NCBI RefSeq assembly: GCF_001625195.1
Contig: NC_054391.1
Coordinates: 9,686,552-9,750,551 of the forward strand
Origin: Drechmeria coniospora
Taxonomy: Eukaryota; Ascomycota; Sordariomycetes; Hypocreales; Ophiocordycipitaceae
Direction: 5' to 3'
Length of the DNA stretch: 64,000 bases
In this document: one piece after another, positions 3,001 to 64,000 of the stretch
Position numbering within the stretch: position 1 is the stretch's first letter
Layout: each line of letters starts with the position of its first letter
Translations under genes and position numbers: made by a program
Notes under the pieces: generated by a model
Databases searched by the model: none
What the model saw: the letters and a program-made list of their open reading frames with translations, nothing else
What the model was told of the DNA's origin: nothing

Positions 3001-5201
3001 TGCATTGTGTGATACAAAAAAATCAATGATGTGGGATACTAGGAAGGTACAAGGCTAGTCTTGTGGACCCATAAAAAGATACCTGGACCCAGTCTATTAT
3101 TTTGGTCTACTACCAGTACACTAATAGCTGAAAGGCTTGATTCCCCGATAGCAAGCGCAGAGTGCTGTTGAAAATTTTCTGACTAAACTATTCAGAGTAA
3201 GACCATGAGTAGGAGTAGCACTAATTTATCGTCCTATTATTCTTGGCACTCTCGTTACAAAAAGCACTATACTAGATGACCTGATGCATTTCTAACATGC
3301 TACAAATATAGTGATTGCCACTGTATACTCCGTACTGTTTAATTCTTTCTTGCTGGCAATTGGAACCCTGGACTATTCCGAATTTAATTTGAATTATCCA
3401 CAGGATACATTTATAGGCAATGTGTATGGGCAGTGTGGTTGAGTAAATGCAAGACGCATGTAGTCATAGAATGACCGTGCTCTACGGCAACTCCTTTGCC
3501 TCTTTCAAATAACCTTTTGCTAAAGCTAGGCAATTGACACCATTTGCAGGCGAAGTATAATCTTAATAGCCAAGAAAAGAGTAAAGTGGTTCCGTAGCGA
3601 AACGATAATTATCCCTTGGGGTATAAGCGAACACTATTGACTGTGCATGAAGAGGTTTATAAACAATGTTGTTGAAGAGGGTATTGTGTGGAACGCGTGG
3701 CTTACGAGATATTGTGAGGCTACTGTCGTGAAATTTTGTGAAAATTGCTATACCTGCGCAATATTTACTTGCTAATACATCGCCGGGCCCAAAGCACCTT
3801 GTTGTGTCCTGCGCTGAATTAGATGAATTATACGGTAAGCAATGGCCGAGACACGATGGGGATGGGTGACCCTAATCAGTTACAATAGTTGCACCAGCCA
3901 CTATGGAAAAAGCACTTGTGCAATTGAATCTATATTTCCAGTCAATGACCTGCTTTATGCACTGTCTAAAATACTTGGTACTGTGCGTATTCCTCCCAAA
4001 TCATCTACATTAATCGTAGCTAATACGGAGTATAAGTGGGGTGCATTCGATTCTAAGAAAGATGTCTTGAAACAAGGTTACGCAGTGTCTTGTTTTAAAC
4101 AAGAGCTCGGACAATGCGTATTAAGGCACATCCTGTAATATATTTTCCTGGTTCTAGCCAATCGAGAGTGGCTAAAGGTAGCCAATACTAGCGTAGCCCG
4201 GTGCTAGTATAACTGTAACAATTCAACTCTTACCGCATGAGTTGGTGTTTGAGCCCCTGACTTTTTACTAGACAGGATGTCAGGGTATTGACACCAGTAC
4301 TAGTGCTAAAGGACGAAACTAGCTTTGCTTATCATAACGCTATATTCGCATAACTGGTGCTAAGGTGTTATTGATTTGCTACTATTATCTATTACAAGCT
4401 CCGTATAGCACTTCCAACCATTGACTAGTACCGAGCATGTCGTACATAACAAAGCCACTAATACGATATACAGTATATGCTCTGCAGAGACCATGAGTAC
4501 ATACAATATATGGCTGTAACAATCCACTGTTTCAAGATATAGAAGATCATTATGCTTCAAGGTCGTTTGCTACGCTCGTAATTATTTGATTCAAGTGCAT
4601 TGCGAAGAGAGTTATTGTGTAAAAGATACAGGCAGTATAGCTAGCATTGAATTTAAGCACGCAAGTAGACCAATATAATCGGATATTACCAAAATGCCAT
4701 TGGAATGTCGGATATATCTGAATCGTACAATAAAATGCAAGTAATAATTAAATCATCCAAGGTAGGCTTCCTGAAACAAGAACTCATTGATACTCAATGC
4801 CTGCGTTGCACGCACATGAATGAGGGATTGTATATTACATCATGGCATGAGTGAGTGGGGTTTGTCTACACGAGTCGTTGCATTGTGTATCAGTATGTTG
4901 TGTCTCAAGTAACCAGTGTGGCGAAACCACTAATAATACTGTCTGCGCAGGATTGAATTATGCGCATAACAAAAATGCAAGGAATAAGTTGAAGAATTTG
5001 CTGGATTCTTGTTCCGTTCATTTGTGTACATATAAGACATACCCCCAAGCAGACAAATATAAACCCTAAATGCATCCAATTCGTTAGTTACACCTGCTTG
5101 TAGGCTGCATCCACTACAATACATTCCCTAAACTTCCCGAAATCTTAACCTTCTCGCTATTCGAGCTACATAAATCGCCTGTTAAACTATCATCCTCAAT
5201 C
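1..5201. other. AT-rich gene-poor region
   Basis: No protein family could be recognised here on either strand. The ORFs are short, lack domain signatures and are not consistent across frames. The DNA is AT-rich and contains several copies of a GTACGGAGTACTCCGTAC-like palindrome, for example near 1071-1088 and 1259-1278. It looks like decayed intergenic or repeat DNA. Confidence 0.6.
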
Positions 5202-5825
5202 ATGAAGTTCATTAACGCAGTTTTCTTTGCTACTATTGCCTCGGCTGCTTCTTTTCGTCGCCAACAGAATCCTGCCGGCGTTCTGCTGAACATACAAAAT
5301 TCCGTCATAAACCTGAACTCGAATGTCCGCTTCATGTCAGATACGGTTGTGAGCAGCACATACCCCGAAATTCTTGATGAAAGTTTTACGGATCTTCATC
5401 AGGTTATTCAAGCCGCTACCTCATACTTTGATACAATGCCTCACCGTATCACTAAAGAAGAGACATCTACTATTCTTCCGTTCATTACAAAGTTTGACCA
5501 GTATGCTCAACATGTTGGTAGTGCTTTAACTGACAGAATTTGGGCGATCTTTAAGAGCGAATCTTGCAATTCCGTACAAAGTCAACTCAGAATCATTCAG
5601 AATGACTTTAAAGGTCTTGGTAAAGTCCTATCTCAAAAGATTGATGAACATACTATTGCTGTTCCTTTAGGATATACTAAAGATGTTACTAATATACTGG
5701 AAAACGTTATCAAGGAGTTCGCGCCAGATGCATGCAAAGCAGGTGCCGATAAGATTTCTCAGGACAAACACCGTAAAGCAGGTTCCAAAGCTTCTGGCAA
5801 GTTTAGTGCGTGGAGAGATAATTGA
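5202..5825 (+). CDS. HsbA-like secreted cell-surface protein
   Basis: This is a single-exon ORF of 207 aa. It starts with a short signal peptide (about residues 1-16, hydrophobic, ending Ala-Ser-Ala-Ala) followed by a mostly alpha-helical region of about 160 residues. The helical pattern and the Cys pair near residues 124 and about 185 resemble the hydrophobic surface binding protein A / cell-wall galactomannoprotein family. Those proteins are secreted by filamentous fungi and bind hydrophobic surfaces or lie in the wall. The last 25 residues are Lys/Ser-rich and polar. The gene is AT-rich with AT-ending codons, unlike the GC-rich genes downstream, and it is followed within 10 bp by a solo LTR. 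A second family member lies at 16227-16853 with opposite base composition. The family call rests on overall pattern and length, not on catalytic motifs. Confidence 0.75.
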   Translation: MKFINAVFFATIASAASFRRQQNPAGVLLNIQNSVINLNSNVRFMSDTVVSSTYPEILDESFTDLHQVIQAATSYFDTMPHRITKEETSTILPFITKFDQYAQHVGSALTDRIWAIFKSESCNSVQSQLRIIQNDFKGLGKVLSQKIDEHTIAVPLGYTKDVTNILENVIKEFAPDACKAGADKISQDKHRKAGSKASGKFSAWRDN

Positions 5826-57895: not shown

Positions 57896-57933
57896 TTAGG
57901 GTTACCCTAGGGTTACCTAGGGTAACCTAGCCG
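57895..57933. repeat. Telomere-repeat-like tract
   Basis: The sequence starts TTAGGGTTACCCTAGGGTTA and continues CCTAGGGTAACCTAG. TAGGG and TTACC(C) words alternate, so parts read as head-to-head telomeric repeats. It sits exactly where copia homology ends. Confidence 0.6.
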
Positions 57934-58424
57934 TTATGTGGCGGGGCTTTTTCAGTCAAAAAGGAAACCCTAGGCGCGTTAGCGCGGGCGGAGCGGGGCA
58001 GGTACCGATTGGCGGGGCGCGCGCGCGAAAAGGTACTTGCGGTCGGGATCGTCGAGTCAAAAAGGTGCAGTCAAAAAGATCCACCAATACGCGGCCGCGC
58101 GGGTCGGGAAAAATACGACCGTACGGGCGGAAAAGATTGTTCGGCGAATATCACGTCGCATCGGCCGTAGCGGTGCGCAGGGCGCGGCAAAATAATCCCC
58201 AACAGTAAAAGTTTTCTTGTCGGGAATTTGGGGAATTTCGGTACGACAATGGTTGGGTAGGTGGGGGGTGGGGGGGGGGGGGGAAGTAGCGGTGTATTGG
58301 TATTGGTAGCTTTGCGGGCGGGGCTTGAAAAAAAAATCCCATCAAGGTAGCAGGGCCAGACCAATAGTAGACTGGAGTAAGTATAGTAGTACTCTATTAT
58401 CTATCCGTACGTACTTGGGTTGGA
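57934..58424. other. GC-rich spacer with a homopolymer G run
   Basis: An abrupt GC-rich island after the AT-rich copia. It contains GTCAAAAAGG-type words three times (57954, 58033, 58068) and a run of about 14 G at 58270-58284. No gene was recognised. It may be the outer end of the element carrying the helicase gene. Confidence 0.5.
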
Positions 58425-58499: not shown

Positions 58500-58581
58500 A
58501 ACAACAATAGCAATCGGGTCAGCAACAGCAACAGCAACAGCAACAACAACAGTAACGGCAACAGCAACAGTAACAGCAACG

Positions 58582-58634
<53 letters not shown>

Positions 58635-58963
58635 GGCACCTGCAATTGTACCAGCAACTGTCAGTACCTGCAACAGCAACAGCAACGGCAACAGCAACAG
58701 TAACAGTACCGGCACCTGCAATTGTACCAGCAACTATCAGTACTTGCAACAGCAACAGCAACAGTAACGGCACCTGCAATTGTACCAGTATCTATCAGCA
58801 CCTGCAACAGCAACAGTAACAGTACCGGCACCTGCAACAGCAACAGTAACAGTAACGGTACCTGCAATTGTACCAGCAACTGTCAGCACCTGCAACAGCA
58901 ACAGTAACGGTACCGGCAACAGTAACGGCACCTGCAATTGTACCAGCAACAGTAACGGCACCG

Positions 58964-58994
<31 letters not shown>

Positions 58995-60482
58995 TACCTA
59001 TAACAGCAACAGCAACAGCAACGGTAACAGCAACTGTACCAGCAACTATCAGCACCTGCAACAGCAACAGCAACAGCAACGGTAACAGCAACTGTACCAG
59101 CAACTATCAGCACCTGCAACAGCAACAGTAACAGTACCGGCAACAGCAACGGCAACGGCAACAGTACCGGCAACAGCAACAGCAACGGCAACAGTACCGG
59201 CAACAGTAACGGCACCTGCAATTGTACCAGTAACTATCAGCACCTGCAACAGCAACAGTAACAGTAACGGTACCTGCAATTGTACCAGCAACTGTCAGCA
59301 ACAGCAACGGCAACAGTAACAGTACCGGCAACAGCAACGGCAACGGCAACAGTACCAGCAACAGTACCGGCAACAGCAACGGCAACGGCAACAGCAACAG
59401 TAACAGTACCGGCACCTGCAATTGTACCAGTAACTGTCAGCACCTGCAACAGCAACAGTAACGGTACCGGCAACAGCAACGGCAACGGCAACAGTACCAG
59501 CAACAGTAACGGCACCTGCAATTGTACCAGTATCTATCAGCACCTGCAACAGCAACAGTAACAGTACCGGCACCTGCAATTGTACCAGTAACTGTCAGCA
59601 CCTGCAACAGCAACAGTAACGGTACCGGCAACAGCAACGGCAACGGCAACAGTACCAGCAACAGTAACGGCACCTGCAATTGTACCAGCAACTGTCAGCA
59701 ACAGCAACGGCAACAGTAACAGTACCGGCAACAGCAACGGCAACGGCAACAGTACCAGCAACAGTACCGGCAACAGCAACGGCAACGGCAACAGCAACAG
59801 TAACGGTACCGGCAAAAGCAACGGCAACGGCAACAGTACCAGCAACAGTAACGGCACCTGCAATTGTACCAGTAACTATCAGCACCTACAACAGCAACAG
59901 TAACAGTACCGGCACCTGTAATTATACCAGCAACTGTCAGCACCTGCAACAGTAACAGTAACGGTACCGGCAACAGTAACGGCACCTGCAATTGTACCAG
60001 CAACAGTAACGGTACCTGCAATTGTACCAGCAACTGTTAGCACCTGCAACAGCAACAGCAACGGCAACAGCAACAGCAACAGCAACGGCAACAGCAACAG
60101 TAACAGTACCGGCACCTGCAATTGTACCAGTAACTATCAGCACCTGCAACAGCAACAGTAACAGTACCGGCACCTGCAATTGTACCAGTAACTATCAGCA
60201 CCTGCAACAGCAACAGTAACAGTACCGGTACCTGCAATTGTACCAGTAACTGTCAGCACCTGCAACAGCAACAGCAACGGTACCGGCAATAGTAACGGCA
60301 ACGGCAACAGTACCAGCAACAGTAACGGCACCTGCAATTGTACCAGTAACTGTTGGCACCTGCAACAGCAACAGTAACGGTACCGGCAATAGTAACGGCA
60401 ACTGTACCAGCAACTGTCAGCACCTGCAACAGCAACAGCAACAACAACGGCAACAGCAACAGCAACAGCAACGGCAACAGCA
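58500..60482. repeat. CAGCAA hexamer array with a 58-bp higher-order unit
   Basis: About 2 kb of AACAGC / AACGGC / AACAGT hexamers are interrupted by CACCTGCAATTGTACCAG(T/C) and AACT(A/G)TCAG. In places (about 60110-60240) these form exact tandem 58-bp units. Thr-Ala, Asn-Ser and Gln frames are all partly open, on both strands, so the many ORFs are artefacts. The array ends four bases before the ATG of the helicase-type gene. Confidence 0.93.
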
Positions 60483-60485
60483 ATA

Positions 60486-61597
60486 ATGGGGTTTGGTACC
60501 TTCTCTTACGATGCAAGCCATCAAGTCGTCGTATGCCAGCTATGCAGGACCTGCATAGGGCCAAAGGAAACGGCCATAAGAAGCCATCTCCGAGCAGAAC
60601 CGCACCGACTCCTCGGCCAAGACCTAAAGTCGACGGTTACTTCCCTTTTAAGCTATAAATGCCGATCTGAAAAGGAACTTCGAGATAATAGGCCAAGCCG
60701 GACTATAACCTGCGTACCTATTGAGGGCCTAGCTACATTCCCTGGATACCTCTGCAATAACGGGGATAACTGCGACTTCTGTACAAGGCGGCTGGCTGCA
60801 ATGCACGACCACCTACCAAGGCACGGCAAGACACGAGCACAACACACAGAAGGTAACCCCCTATGGCGGGCCTGCTGCCTACAGACCTACTTTACGGCAA
60901 AGGGTAGGATTGACTACTTTATCGTTCAGGACCAGCAGGAACGCCAAGGGGTACCATTATCGTTATCGGTAGAGGAAGACGCCCTATTCGCCACGTTAAA
61001 GCAGGATATACAGCAAGCAACAAGGGACCTGGACGAAAAGGCAGCTACCGTACCGGATACCGACGAGACGGCTAGAACGGAGCGGCAGCCGTGGCTTGTT
61101 ATGACGGGTTTCCCCGACCACCTACGGGGGCTACAGGATTCAGAGATCCAATCGTCGTATACACTACCTGGGAAGAAGAAATATAACAGTAGTAGTGATA
61201 ACGAAGAAGACTGGCTACTGCTACAGATTTTGGAAGCAGCAGAAGAGGTACTTCGCGATGCTTATTCTGTCTGTAGCTACCGGGGCCTGGGTCAGAAGAT
61301 TACACAGCAACGGGCCACTATCCTCAGTAACTTTACAGCCGGCCAGCCGGCCGCCCGGGGCAATACTATTGCGTTCCGTAGCTTTAAGAACCAGTCTACG
61401 TTATCGACCTACTTCCGGAGGATGAAGCAGCTACTTGTCTACTACTTTCGCGTTGTGTATAGCGAGGACGGCCACTTTACAAGGGTAGGCAGCCAGGAAG
61501 AGGGTGGCCAGGTATTGCCAAAGGATATAATCCAGCCAACGCAAGCCCAGCAGGAAGCAATATTGGATGTTATTACAGCTATATACGATCAACAGGA

Positions 61598-61643
<46 letters not shown>

Positions 61644-64000
61644 GGCAACAGCAACGGTAACGGCAACAGCAACAGCAACGGTAACAGTAACGGCAGCAGC
61701 AACGGCAACGGCAACAGCAACGGTAACGGCAACAGCAACAGCAACGGCAACAGCAACGGCAACAGCAACGGCAACAGCAACGGTAACGGCAATAGCAACA
61801 GCAACAGCAACGGCAACAGCAACGGTAACAGCAACGGTAACGGCAACAGCAATAGCAACGGCAACAGCAACGGCAACAGCAACGGCAACAGCAACGGTAA
61901 CGGCAACAGCAACGGCAACGGCAACAGTAATAGCAACGGTAAAGACAATACTATAGTTAAGAAGGCTATACGAAGGCTATATATTGCATTAATCTATCAG
62001 GAAATCGGAAGCGTACCCTTTGCATCCCCACTCCTAAGTTTCTGTGCTATGCTTAGCCGGATATCAATCCAAAAGAATGGATTAACTAGGGACGGCCTAG
62101 GGGATACAAGGGTATCAATTTGGGCAGATCCAGGTAACTATAATAGTAACCTTTCTGCCCTTATCTGGTGTGCACAACTACTTGTCTTTAATTTTGTTTG
62201 CTTTCAGAAGCAGGATAACGAAAATGGGATCCCAGCCCTACTGCAAAAGCTCTGTCGACGTATGATCCATGCGGCAGCCGAGACCCCTATTGGTTATATG
62301 CTTCAATGGCGGGTATACCTCTTTGCTATACGCACATCGGCTTTTTCACGCAGCCAGGCCCGCTGGCTACTTAACGGCCAGGCCTTTGACTACCAAGGCA
62401 TAAGGCTAAGTCTCGACCAAGTCTCCCAACTTATCGTCTCAGAATACCAACAGGCATATACAATACTATACAACGACCTACTACTTGGATCGAGGGATAT
62501 AGTACCTATTGAGTCGTGGAAGCTATATGACGACCTTGACGTTGAGGACTATGGGAGTGACTGGCGTACCGATAATCGGAACGCCGAGGTACTGAGCGGT
62601 ACTGAGCAGGTCCTACTGCAGTATATCTTCCAGAACCCATCCCAACGACGGGCATTTATACAAGATAACCCTAGTGGTTCCGGAAGTTCAATTTGTCCCC
62701 GTGCTATTGCAAATTATGAGGCACAAGTACAGCTATTCCTTCAACGGATGCTTGTTCTTATGCATATCTCACCATGTCCTCCCTTACGGGCCCCTGAGAT
62801 ACTATCTATAACGTATACTAATACGGATCGGCGCCGAAGTATTCTACTATGGGAAAATACTGTTATGCTCTATGTACGGTACCATAAGAGTCTTGAGCAA
62901 ACTGGTGCACAAAAGGATAATATCCGCTTTTTACCCCAGCCTATAGGCAATCTACTTCTTACCTATCTTGCTATTGTACAGCCGTTACGACAGGTATTCC
63001 TTCGTCAACAAAGCCCTAATGCATTACTATCCCCTTTTTTGTGGTCTAATCTTAAGGGGCAGGTTTGGAGAGATACTACTGTTTCCCGGTGCCTACAGAA
63101 AGCGTGTACCCAGGCCGAGATTCCTTCCTTCCAGGTTGCCTGGTGGCGCCAGGCTGCAGCATCTATTACAAAGGAGAAATTCAGTCCCAAGGATCAGGAA
63201 AACTTTGATCTACAAGATATTACAGCAGCAGAGGTAGAAGACGAAGCCGACCTAATTGTTATGGCCGAGGCTAGTAACCACAGCTATCGGACTTTCAACC
63301 AGTCTTATGCCGGCAGTACGACCCTAGTTATGAGTACACTACTTGGCCGTGCATACCGTGCGTCGCAGAGTTGGCAGTCCCTTTTTGGTATCGACAAACA
63401 ACTTAGACTTTTACAGTTACAGCAGCAAAGGAAGCGACCACAATCTATATCAGAAGCAACAGGGCTACAACTATTGCACAAGAAGACTAGGTACCGTACA
63501 AGGCCAATAGCCGACGAGGCTAGTATTCTATTGGTAGCCCGTCGTCTACGGAACGACCCGTCCCTCCAGCTACGCCCCGGGCAACGGGAAGGACTTCTTG
63601 CAGTAGTAGGTCCACGAGCAGCCGAGCAGGCTATAGTTGTACTTGGTACAGGATGTGGGAAAACACTTATTGTTACTGTTGCTGCTTCCCTAGATGGAGC
63701 TGGAACAACAGTCCTTATTTTACCTACAGTGGCACTACGAAACGATATATGTACCTACCTTAATACTATTGGCCTCCGGTACGTTATCTGGCTACAAGGG
63801 ACAACAAAGACAGCGCCTCTTGTACTTATTTCTGCCGAGGCTGCTACAACAGAGGGCTTCCTGGAATACGTTAGCCGGCTGGAAACCCGTCAGCAGCTAG
63901 ACCGGATTGTTATTGACGAATGTCACTTAACAATTACGGCTAGTAACTACAGAAGATCGATGGTCCAGCTTGGCTGGTTTGTACGGAATATTGCAACACA
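60486..64000 (+). CDS. OrsD zinc finger + tyrosine-recombinase-like + RecQ helicase protein (3' end outside window)
   Basis: The frame is open for at least 1171 codons. The ATG at 60486 is the first after an in-frame TAA at 60393. Residues 1 to about 180 resemble the OrsD/DUF3505 zinc-finger family: CQLCRTC with Cys17 and Cys20, His34 and His40, then VPIEGL and a CNNGDNCDFC segment with H...H. Residues 372-487 are an Asn-Ser/Asn-Gly repeat. Residues about 490-1000 carry a tyrosine-recombinase-like pattern: Arg768 in PLRAPEIL, Lys801, Arg888 in AWWRQAAASI, His932 and Tyr941 spaced H-x8-Y. From about 1030 a RecQ-type motor begins: LRPGQREG, Walker A GTGCGKT (1054-1060) and DECH (1144-1147). Similar giant helicases are linked to fungal telomeres. 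The recombinase reading is inference from motif spacing. Confidence 0.88.
61599..61944 (+). repeat. In-frame Asn-Ser/Asn-Gly hexamer expansion
   Basis: About 58 hexamers (AACAGC or AACGGC, some AACGGT) encode a roughly 115-residue Asn-Ser/Asn-Gly linker inside the 60486-64000 protein. It is the same hexamer family as the array at 58500-60482. The period is strictly six, so the frame is kept. Confidence 0.93.

Follow-up and report, generated by a model that had tools for sequence, protein, structure and literature searches.

A predicted tyrosine recombinase domain in the telomere-linked helicases of Drechmeria coniospora

The DNA analysed here, a window of 64,000 nucleotides from the fungus Drechmeria coniospora, ends inside a telomere-linked helicase (TLH) gene. 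Predicted fold and residue conservation support a tyrosine recombinase (YR) domain, presumably a catalytically active one, in the middle of the encoded protein. The sequence that carries the gene begins at a sharply defined left end, and we lean towards reading the gene as the coding core of a telomere-side mobile element that acts on this end; mobility of such an element is plausible. That TLH genes, among which we count UTASa/b of Ustilago maydis, TLH1 of Magnaporthe and tlh1/2 of Schizosaccharomyces pombe, sit at the ends of fungal chromosomes is long established, and as far as we know no explanation of where they lie or how they spread is generally accepted. A conserved domain of the kind that cuts and rejoins DNA, together with a fixed element end, gives a testable reason for the location, and could explain how these genes spread between chromosome ends.

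Results

A predicted recombinase fold between the OrsD and helicase domains

The frame opens at 60486 and is cut by the window edge at 63998 (all window features are on the forward strand), giving 1171 codons, residues 1–1171 of the 1676 encoded by the complete copy on contig C1. At its start, residues 5–113 (60498–60824) match OrsD (PF12013; Pfam, 4.1e-20). A RecQ-type helicase starts at residue 1027 (first part at 63564–63998, continuing to about residue 1393 in the C1 copy), with a Pfam DEAD match of 2e-7 at residues 1045–1154 and the motifs GTGCGKT and DECH. The full 1676-residue protein has Pfam matches to OrsD, DEAD, ResIII and Helicase_C, and a profile of the TLH family finds BLM among PDB sequences at 4e-45, and also RECQ5. 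As 'telomere-associated recQ-like helicase' and 'tlh3' are among the names given to database relatives, and as the gene faces outward at contig ends, these matches identify it as a fungal TLH. A sequence-only reading of the window had already described the long frame, the OrsD-like finger, the two helicase motifs and five recombinase-type residues between them, all of which stand.

The region between OrsD and the helicase was examined with AlphaFold2 models and fold comparison. Its predicted fold matches the YR/topoisomerase IB superfamily, and with two models the best superpositions fall almost unbroken within that superfamily. Structural alignments with XerH, Cre and lambda Int begin, as judged from their first and last aligned residues, in a helical region at residues ~498–620 (61977–62345), and there they fall in what we take to be the core-binding domains of those enzymes. 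The catalytic domain follows at residues ~621–973 (62346–63404). A profile search of PDB sequences with the whole family returned helicase-type proteins only, among the best 60 of 224 matches; no sequence profile that we tried detects the YR domain, which, we think, is why it stayed hidden until fold prediction and residue conservation revealed it.

The secondary structure of the AlphaFold2 model fits the catalytic places of all five residues. Arg768 (62787–62789), the first catalytic arginine, stands in the motif LRAPE just before a short helix; Lys801 (62886–62888) lies between the two strands of a beta hairpin; Arg888 (63147–63149), the second arginine, is within a helix; His932 (63279–63281), at the His/Trp position, precedes a helix; and Tyr941 (63306–63308), the proposed nucleophile, sits at a helix end with H-x8-Y spacing from His932.

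Conservation was assessed in 228 proteins (227 fetched and that of the window), 200 of which match a profile of residues 489–1010. The homologue search covered the best 120 of 174 matches, and scored the 7994 candidates with the most words shared. Among the 160 proteins that cover all five positions, 153 keep Arg-Lys-Arg-His-Tyr; the exceptions are P0063, P0080, P0091, P0141, P0161, P0166 and P0190. Taken singly, Tyr941 is kept in 176 of 178 readable rows, Arg888 in 179 of 180 and His932 in 155 of 160. Only 13 of 519 columns are at least 98% identical, and these include Tyr941 (the only one of 21 tyrosines), Lys801 (the only one of 17 lysines) and five of 39 arginines, Arg768 and Arg888 among them. 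An alignment of 87 rows with identities down to 23% has seven strictly invariant columns (L665, D682, R768, K801, R814, H932 and Y941), every one inside residues 615–980, with Arg888 nearly invariant; this alignment was chosen by hand (86 of the 227 fetched proteins, mostly long ones) and excludes the seven exceptions. In an alignment of 88 rows Arg768 and Lys801 are strictly invariant, and Arg888, His932 and Tyr941 are at least 90% conserved. The sequence-only reading had tied its recombinase-like region to two tests set beforehand, a structural match to recombinases and conservation of these residues in homologues; both came out in its favour.

Copies at the contig ends share one left boundary

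The genome assembly (32.8 Mb, 28 contigs) has three large contigs, C1, C2 and C3, of 12.54, 10.20 and 9.75 Mb; for strain ARSEF 6962, a nematode parasite, the accessible text of PMC4792172 gives three chromosomes of 12.5, 10.2 and 9.8 Mb. The window is C3:9686552-9750551. Since C3 stops 664 bases past its edge, the TLH locus lies at a contig end and probably at a chromosome end. The frame at 60486–63998 recurs with 100% identity at the left ends of two contigs (C1:1696-5208 and C2:538-4050), and the C1 copy is complete, with its stop codon at C1:178. Three further ends, C3 left, C1 right and C2 right, carry pieces that are 99–100% identical; there the contig breaks off within the gene. The gene is thus present at 6/6 ends of the large contigs, always facing outward. 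These end copies are 99.9–100% identical across 3.7–6.7 kb, save C2 right (97.7% across 4.0 kb). Such exact identity may be inflated by gap filling during assembly (PMC4792172 names PBJelly, which is relevant if that is the genome analysed here). Diverged copies, too, support the argument from the boundary. Stop codons occur in the larger interior pieces, except that at C1:948k. End and interior copies did not fall clearly apart in a dinucleotide count of the repeat-induced point mutation type, and our calling the latter decayed therefore rests on stop codons and identity.

On the centromere side the element begins at window position 57926, a boundary placed within 1–3 nt at the six contig ends and at C1:946817. 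From this base on the six end copies are alike, starting CCTAGCCGTTATGTGGCGG..., and so is the interior copy at C1:946.8k; in the eighth gene-bearing copy, interior at C1:984k, the likeness starts 19 bases further in. The 1-kb left flanks of the eight copies are unrelated, save 21 bp of telomere-like sequence common to C2 left and C3 right. In the window a telomere-like flank (TTAGGGTTACCCTAGGGTTACC...), a period-10 repeat of TAGGGTTACC, runs up to the left end (57897–57930). Twenty matches to the left end were found in the genome, 13 of which start inside its first 25 nt. A 17-base boundary word occurs with 0–1 mismatch at 7 genome sites, every one at a left boundary, and with 2 mismatches at two, namely C2:10136011, another left end, and C1:978277, which lies after the gene and is followed by a TAAGTG satellite.

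The second of these sites belongs to a 26-bp terminal repeat, CTAGCCGTTATGTGGCGGGGCTTTTT, at 57927–57952, whose copy at C1:978277 is in direct orientation at the right end of the C1:984k copy and has 3 differences (C/T, G/A and G/C). Two further features may mark the left end as a recombinase site: a candidate dyad, CTTTTT-CAGTC-AAAAAG, at 57947–57963, and three direct copies of AGTCAAAAAG at 57954, 58055 and 58069 (57954–58078), candidate recombinase-binding repeats. The sequence-only reading had looked to the neighbouring sequence for the rest of the gene, the element ends and target duplications; the complete gene was found on C1, the left end at the window locus and its other copies, and one full right end at an interior copy, and a target duplication was not found.

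The contigs end inside the TLH gene or in a TAAGTG satellite, and the assembly has no TTAGGG end array; its single interstitial TTAGGG near-match is at C2:9832583. The satellite beyond the right end is a TAAGTG-type hexamer array of ~1.8 kb (locus L015, reverse strand, about 3740–5500), and sequence like it occurs at C1:901-908k, C3:10.5k and on contig C26. It is possibly the usual sequence between TLH gene and telomere. Old, diverged left ends at C2:475.1k and C2:458.0k have TTAGGGTTAGGG some 60–80 bp upstream, which suggests past joining at telomere sequence.

A second TLH family

A second TLH family, with a protein about 50% identical to the first, is present at C1:910-920k, C3:9-19k and C1:20-30k. 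Two of its copies have a sharp common left end of their own (CTARCTCCTATRCYGGG...TTTTTCGACGAAAC), which is related to that of the first family: in one copy 23/39 bases agree in a register set by hand, with 0/100,000 shuffles as good. The copy at C1:910k has two copies of CGACGAAAC near its left end. At C1:919.6-919.9k the left flank of the element is a piece of a gene resembling a Ser/Thr phosphatase (named by eye), 98% identical to C3:3068823-3069077 and broken off at the element's left end. This junction looks as if a broken end had been capped, which would suit a mobile element and a resident gene alike. We rejected a clean empty site in the phosphatase-like gene: a longer counterpart exists on C3, yet the sequence across the element is not the remainder of that gene. 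A right end was also considered, as the copies have a common edge that first resembled one. The same sequence is a repeat at no fewer than 40 genome places (e.g. C1:12274068 and C3:9742206) that extends into the right side of these copies, and we therefore make no claim for a right end of this family.

Other features of the gene and its relatives

A hexamer-based minisatellite of the GCAACA type lies between the left end and the start codon (58520–60483), and another, in frame at 61599–61927, encodes an Asn/Ser/Gly linker; the two are related CAACAG/GCAACA repeats. After the helicase, the Cys-rich stretches CSVC, CCLYC and CWRC (about residues 1450–1620 of the complete frame, read by eye) may form a RecQ zinc-binding domain that has diverged. 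In Fusarium oxysporum, protein P0098, which is annotated as ankyrin-repeat, has part of the TLH middle region and no listed helicase domain; it may be a true fusion or a gene-model error. A further protein search added only some remoter members of the family and ordinary RecQ helicases, with no TLH of S. pombe or U. maydis identified. Among viral contigs a scan turned up no relative.

Discussion

The YR domain in the same protein and an end defined by the element lead to an economical model, in which the protein would act on its own end. The protein comprises, in order, the OrsD zinc finger, a helical domain like a core-binding domain, the predicted YR catalytic domain with Arg-Lys-Arg-His-Tyr intact and the RecQ helicase, and the element that encodes it would be about 7.7 kb long. 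The recombinase would recognise the left end through the dyad and the AGTCAAAAAG repeats, Tyr941 would cut the DNA there and form a 3'-phosphotyrosyl link, and the end would be joined to subtelomeric or broken chromosomal DNA, leaving the gene facing the telomere. The helicase may unwind DNA while joining or copying proceeds. The model allows joining to intact or to broken DNA.

The strongest competitor, which we judge unlikely, keeps an active recombinase and places it in a resident gene of chromosome ends: the copies would have spread by subtelomeric recombination, and the YR domain would serve telomere maintenance, for instance by joining or resolving failed ends. Expression of one TLH gene of U. 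maydis, UMAG_12032, is raised in two strains that are telomerase-negative (PMC10532341), the near-identity of the end copies (97.7% at C2 right) is what gene conversion would give, and the second-family copy joined to the duplicated phosphatase-like piece looks like a capped broken end. Homologous exchange explains only the high identity, though. A single left base, fixed in seven copies whose flanks are unrelated, is not what it predicts and is explained by an element-defined end; diverged interior copies have the same left end. It is improbable that the YR fold is used purely as a DNA-binding module, in the manner of the domesticated Crypton (DUF3504) proteins. Such domesticated recombinases exist and the histidine of the HxxR box is missing here, but the DUF3504 proteins lost the catalytic tyrosine and the second arginine (PMC3212892, in its accessible part), and Tyr941 and Arg888 are kept. 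We give very little credence to a telomere resolvase that makes or opens hairpin chromosome ends at the left-end dyad: its match is much weaker than that of Xer or Cre, the dyad is on the inner side of the gene, and other D. coniospora assemblies have (TTAGGG)n ends according to the accessible text of PMC7500977. That the recombinase match arose by chance in an unrelated helical region, as the lack of sequence-profile support might suggest, is hardly credible when the best superpositions of two models fall almost unbroken in one superfamily and the expected residues are conserved in the expected order.

Several observations weigh against a recombinase that moves its own element. On the protein side, the Foldseek E-values are always above 0.001, and Pfam, NCBIfam and PHROGs gave no YR family match. 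Comparison with 10 known YRs by hhalign scored 15.1, equalled or beaten by 22/60 shuffles and by the reversed control, and in the aligned piece Arg768 stands opposite Arg148 of XerD with Lys172 of XerD opposite His800, one residue off Lys801. The HxxR histidine (position 885) is replaced by Ala or Ser in 165 of 179 readable rows (Ala 106, Ser 59, other 14 and unread 21 of 200). On the DNA side, the left flanks have no common motif, neither a target-site duplication nor a circular form of the element was found, and no empty site turned up, including for the C1:984k copy, whose left flank is unique in the genome. Only that copy has a fully readable right end, and its left end is without the first ~18 bp of the ~26-bp repeat; the other right end seen, where C1 starts, retains just a part of this repeat. 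At up to 3 mismatches the 17-base word has 42 sites against 48 for a reversed control, and for this reason only close matches to it count. The His/Lys of the HxxR box is usual and not universal in tyrosine recombinases, hence we did not treat it as defining. The proposal of the sequence-only reading that this is a mobile element of chromosome ends gains from its position at every end of the large contigs, an exact left boundary beside unrelated flanks, decayed interior copies and one direct repeat; subtelomeric recombination stays as the alternative.

More tentatively, Ascomycota TLH genes may form a distinct class of mobile element, a YR-helicase fusion that joins its left end to subtelomeric or broken ends and so caps the chromosome, and that might by analogy be the YR counterpart of the nuclease-helicase design of Helitrons. 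A conserved recombinase domain in a TLH protein would link telomere maintenance, telomerase-free survival and mobile elements, and the YR-RecQ fusion would join the known combinations of a DNA-cutting tyrosine with a helicase.

Comparison with known systems

The gene is like the telomere-linked helicases in its RecQ helicase and OrsD domain and in its outward-facing place beside chromosome ends. The texts consulted on that group name no recombinase, and here the YR domain is in the same protein. In Colletotrichum higginsianum, repeat families called 'DHX' (a helicase with DUF3505, which is OrsD) are found at all 24 subtelomeres, one per chromosome end, in the same orientation and beside chromosome-unique sequence; they are filed under Helitron and TIR (terminal inverted repeat) class codes, and the word 'recombinase' occurs 0 times in the accessible text (PMC5576322). 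The fusion, which looked undocumented to the sequence-only reading, is therefore documented as to helicase and OrsD at telomeres (PMC5576322 and PMC10532341), and only its recombinase part appears to be new: a YR domain in telomere-linked helicases is undescribed among the open-access papers that the literature searches listed, and earlier notice is possible in the original TLH papers, which are outside that scope.

Cryptons, too, are fungal DNA elements that encode a YR and have short terminal direct repeats, of 4–6 bp (accessible part of PMC3212892); the TLH repeat is of ~26 bp and, as a right-end repeat, is seen in a single copy. The TLH element differs further by its RecQ helicase, its OrsD domain and its location at chromosome ends, and the full 1676-residue protein has no Pfam match to GCR1_C, the fungal Crypton domain. 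DUF3435, which we take to be the domain of Starship captains, likewise has no Pfam match in the protein; the YR domain is so divergent that this negative is compatible with distant kinship. Helitrons have an HUH nuclease and a Pif1-type helicase, one protein uniting a tyrosine DNA-cutting enzyme with a helicase. The TLH protein shares that pairing, with a predicted YR fold and a RecQ helicase instead; assignment to Helitrons was ruled out by the OrsD and RecQ matches to Pfam and PDB sequences and the predicted YR fold of the middle. With Xer, Cre and lambda Int it has in common the fold and the residues R-K-R-H/W-Y in order, without detectable sequence-profile similarity and with the HxxR histidine replaced. 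In XerD of E. coli K-12, R148, K172, R247, H270 and Y279 follow in the same order; the loop from the second arginine to the histidine has 44 residues in the TLH protein (Arg888 to His932) versus 23 in XerD, and the step from histidine to tyrosine is 9 in both.
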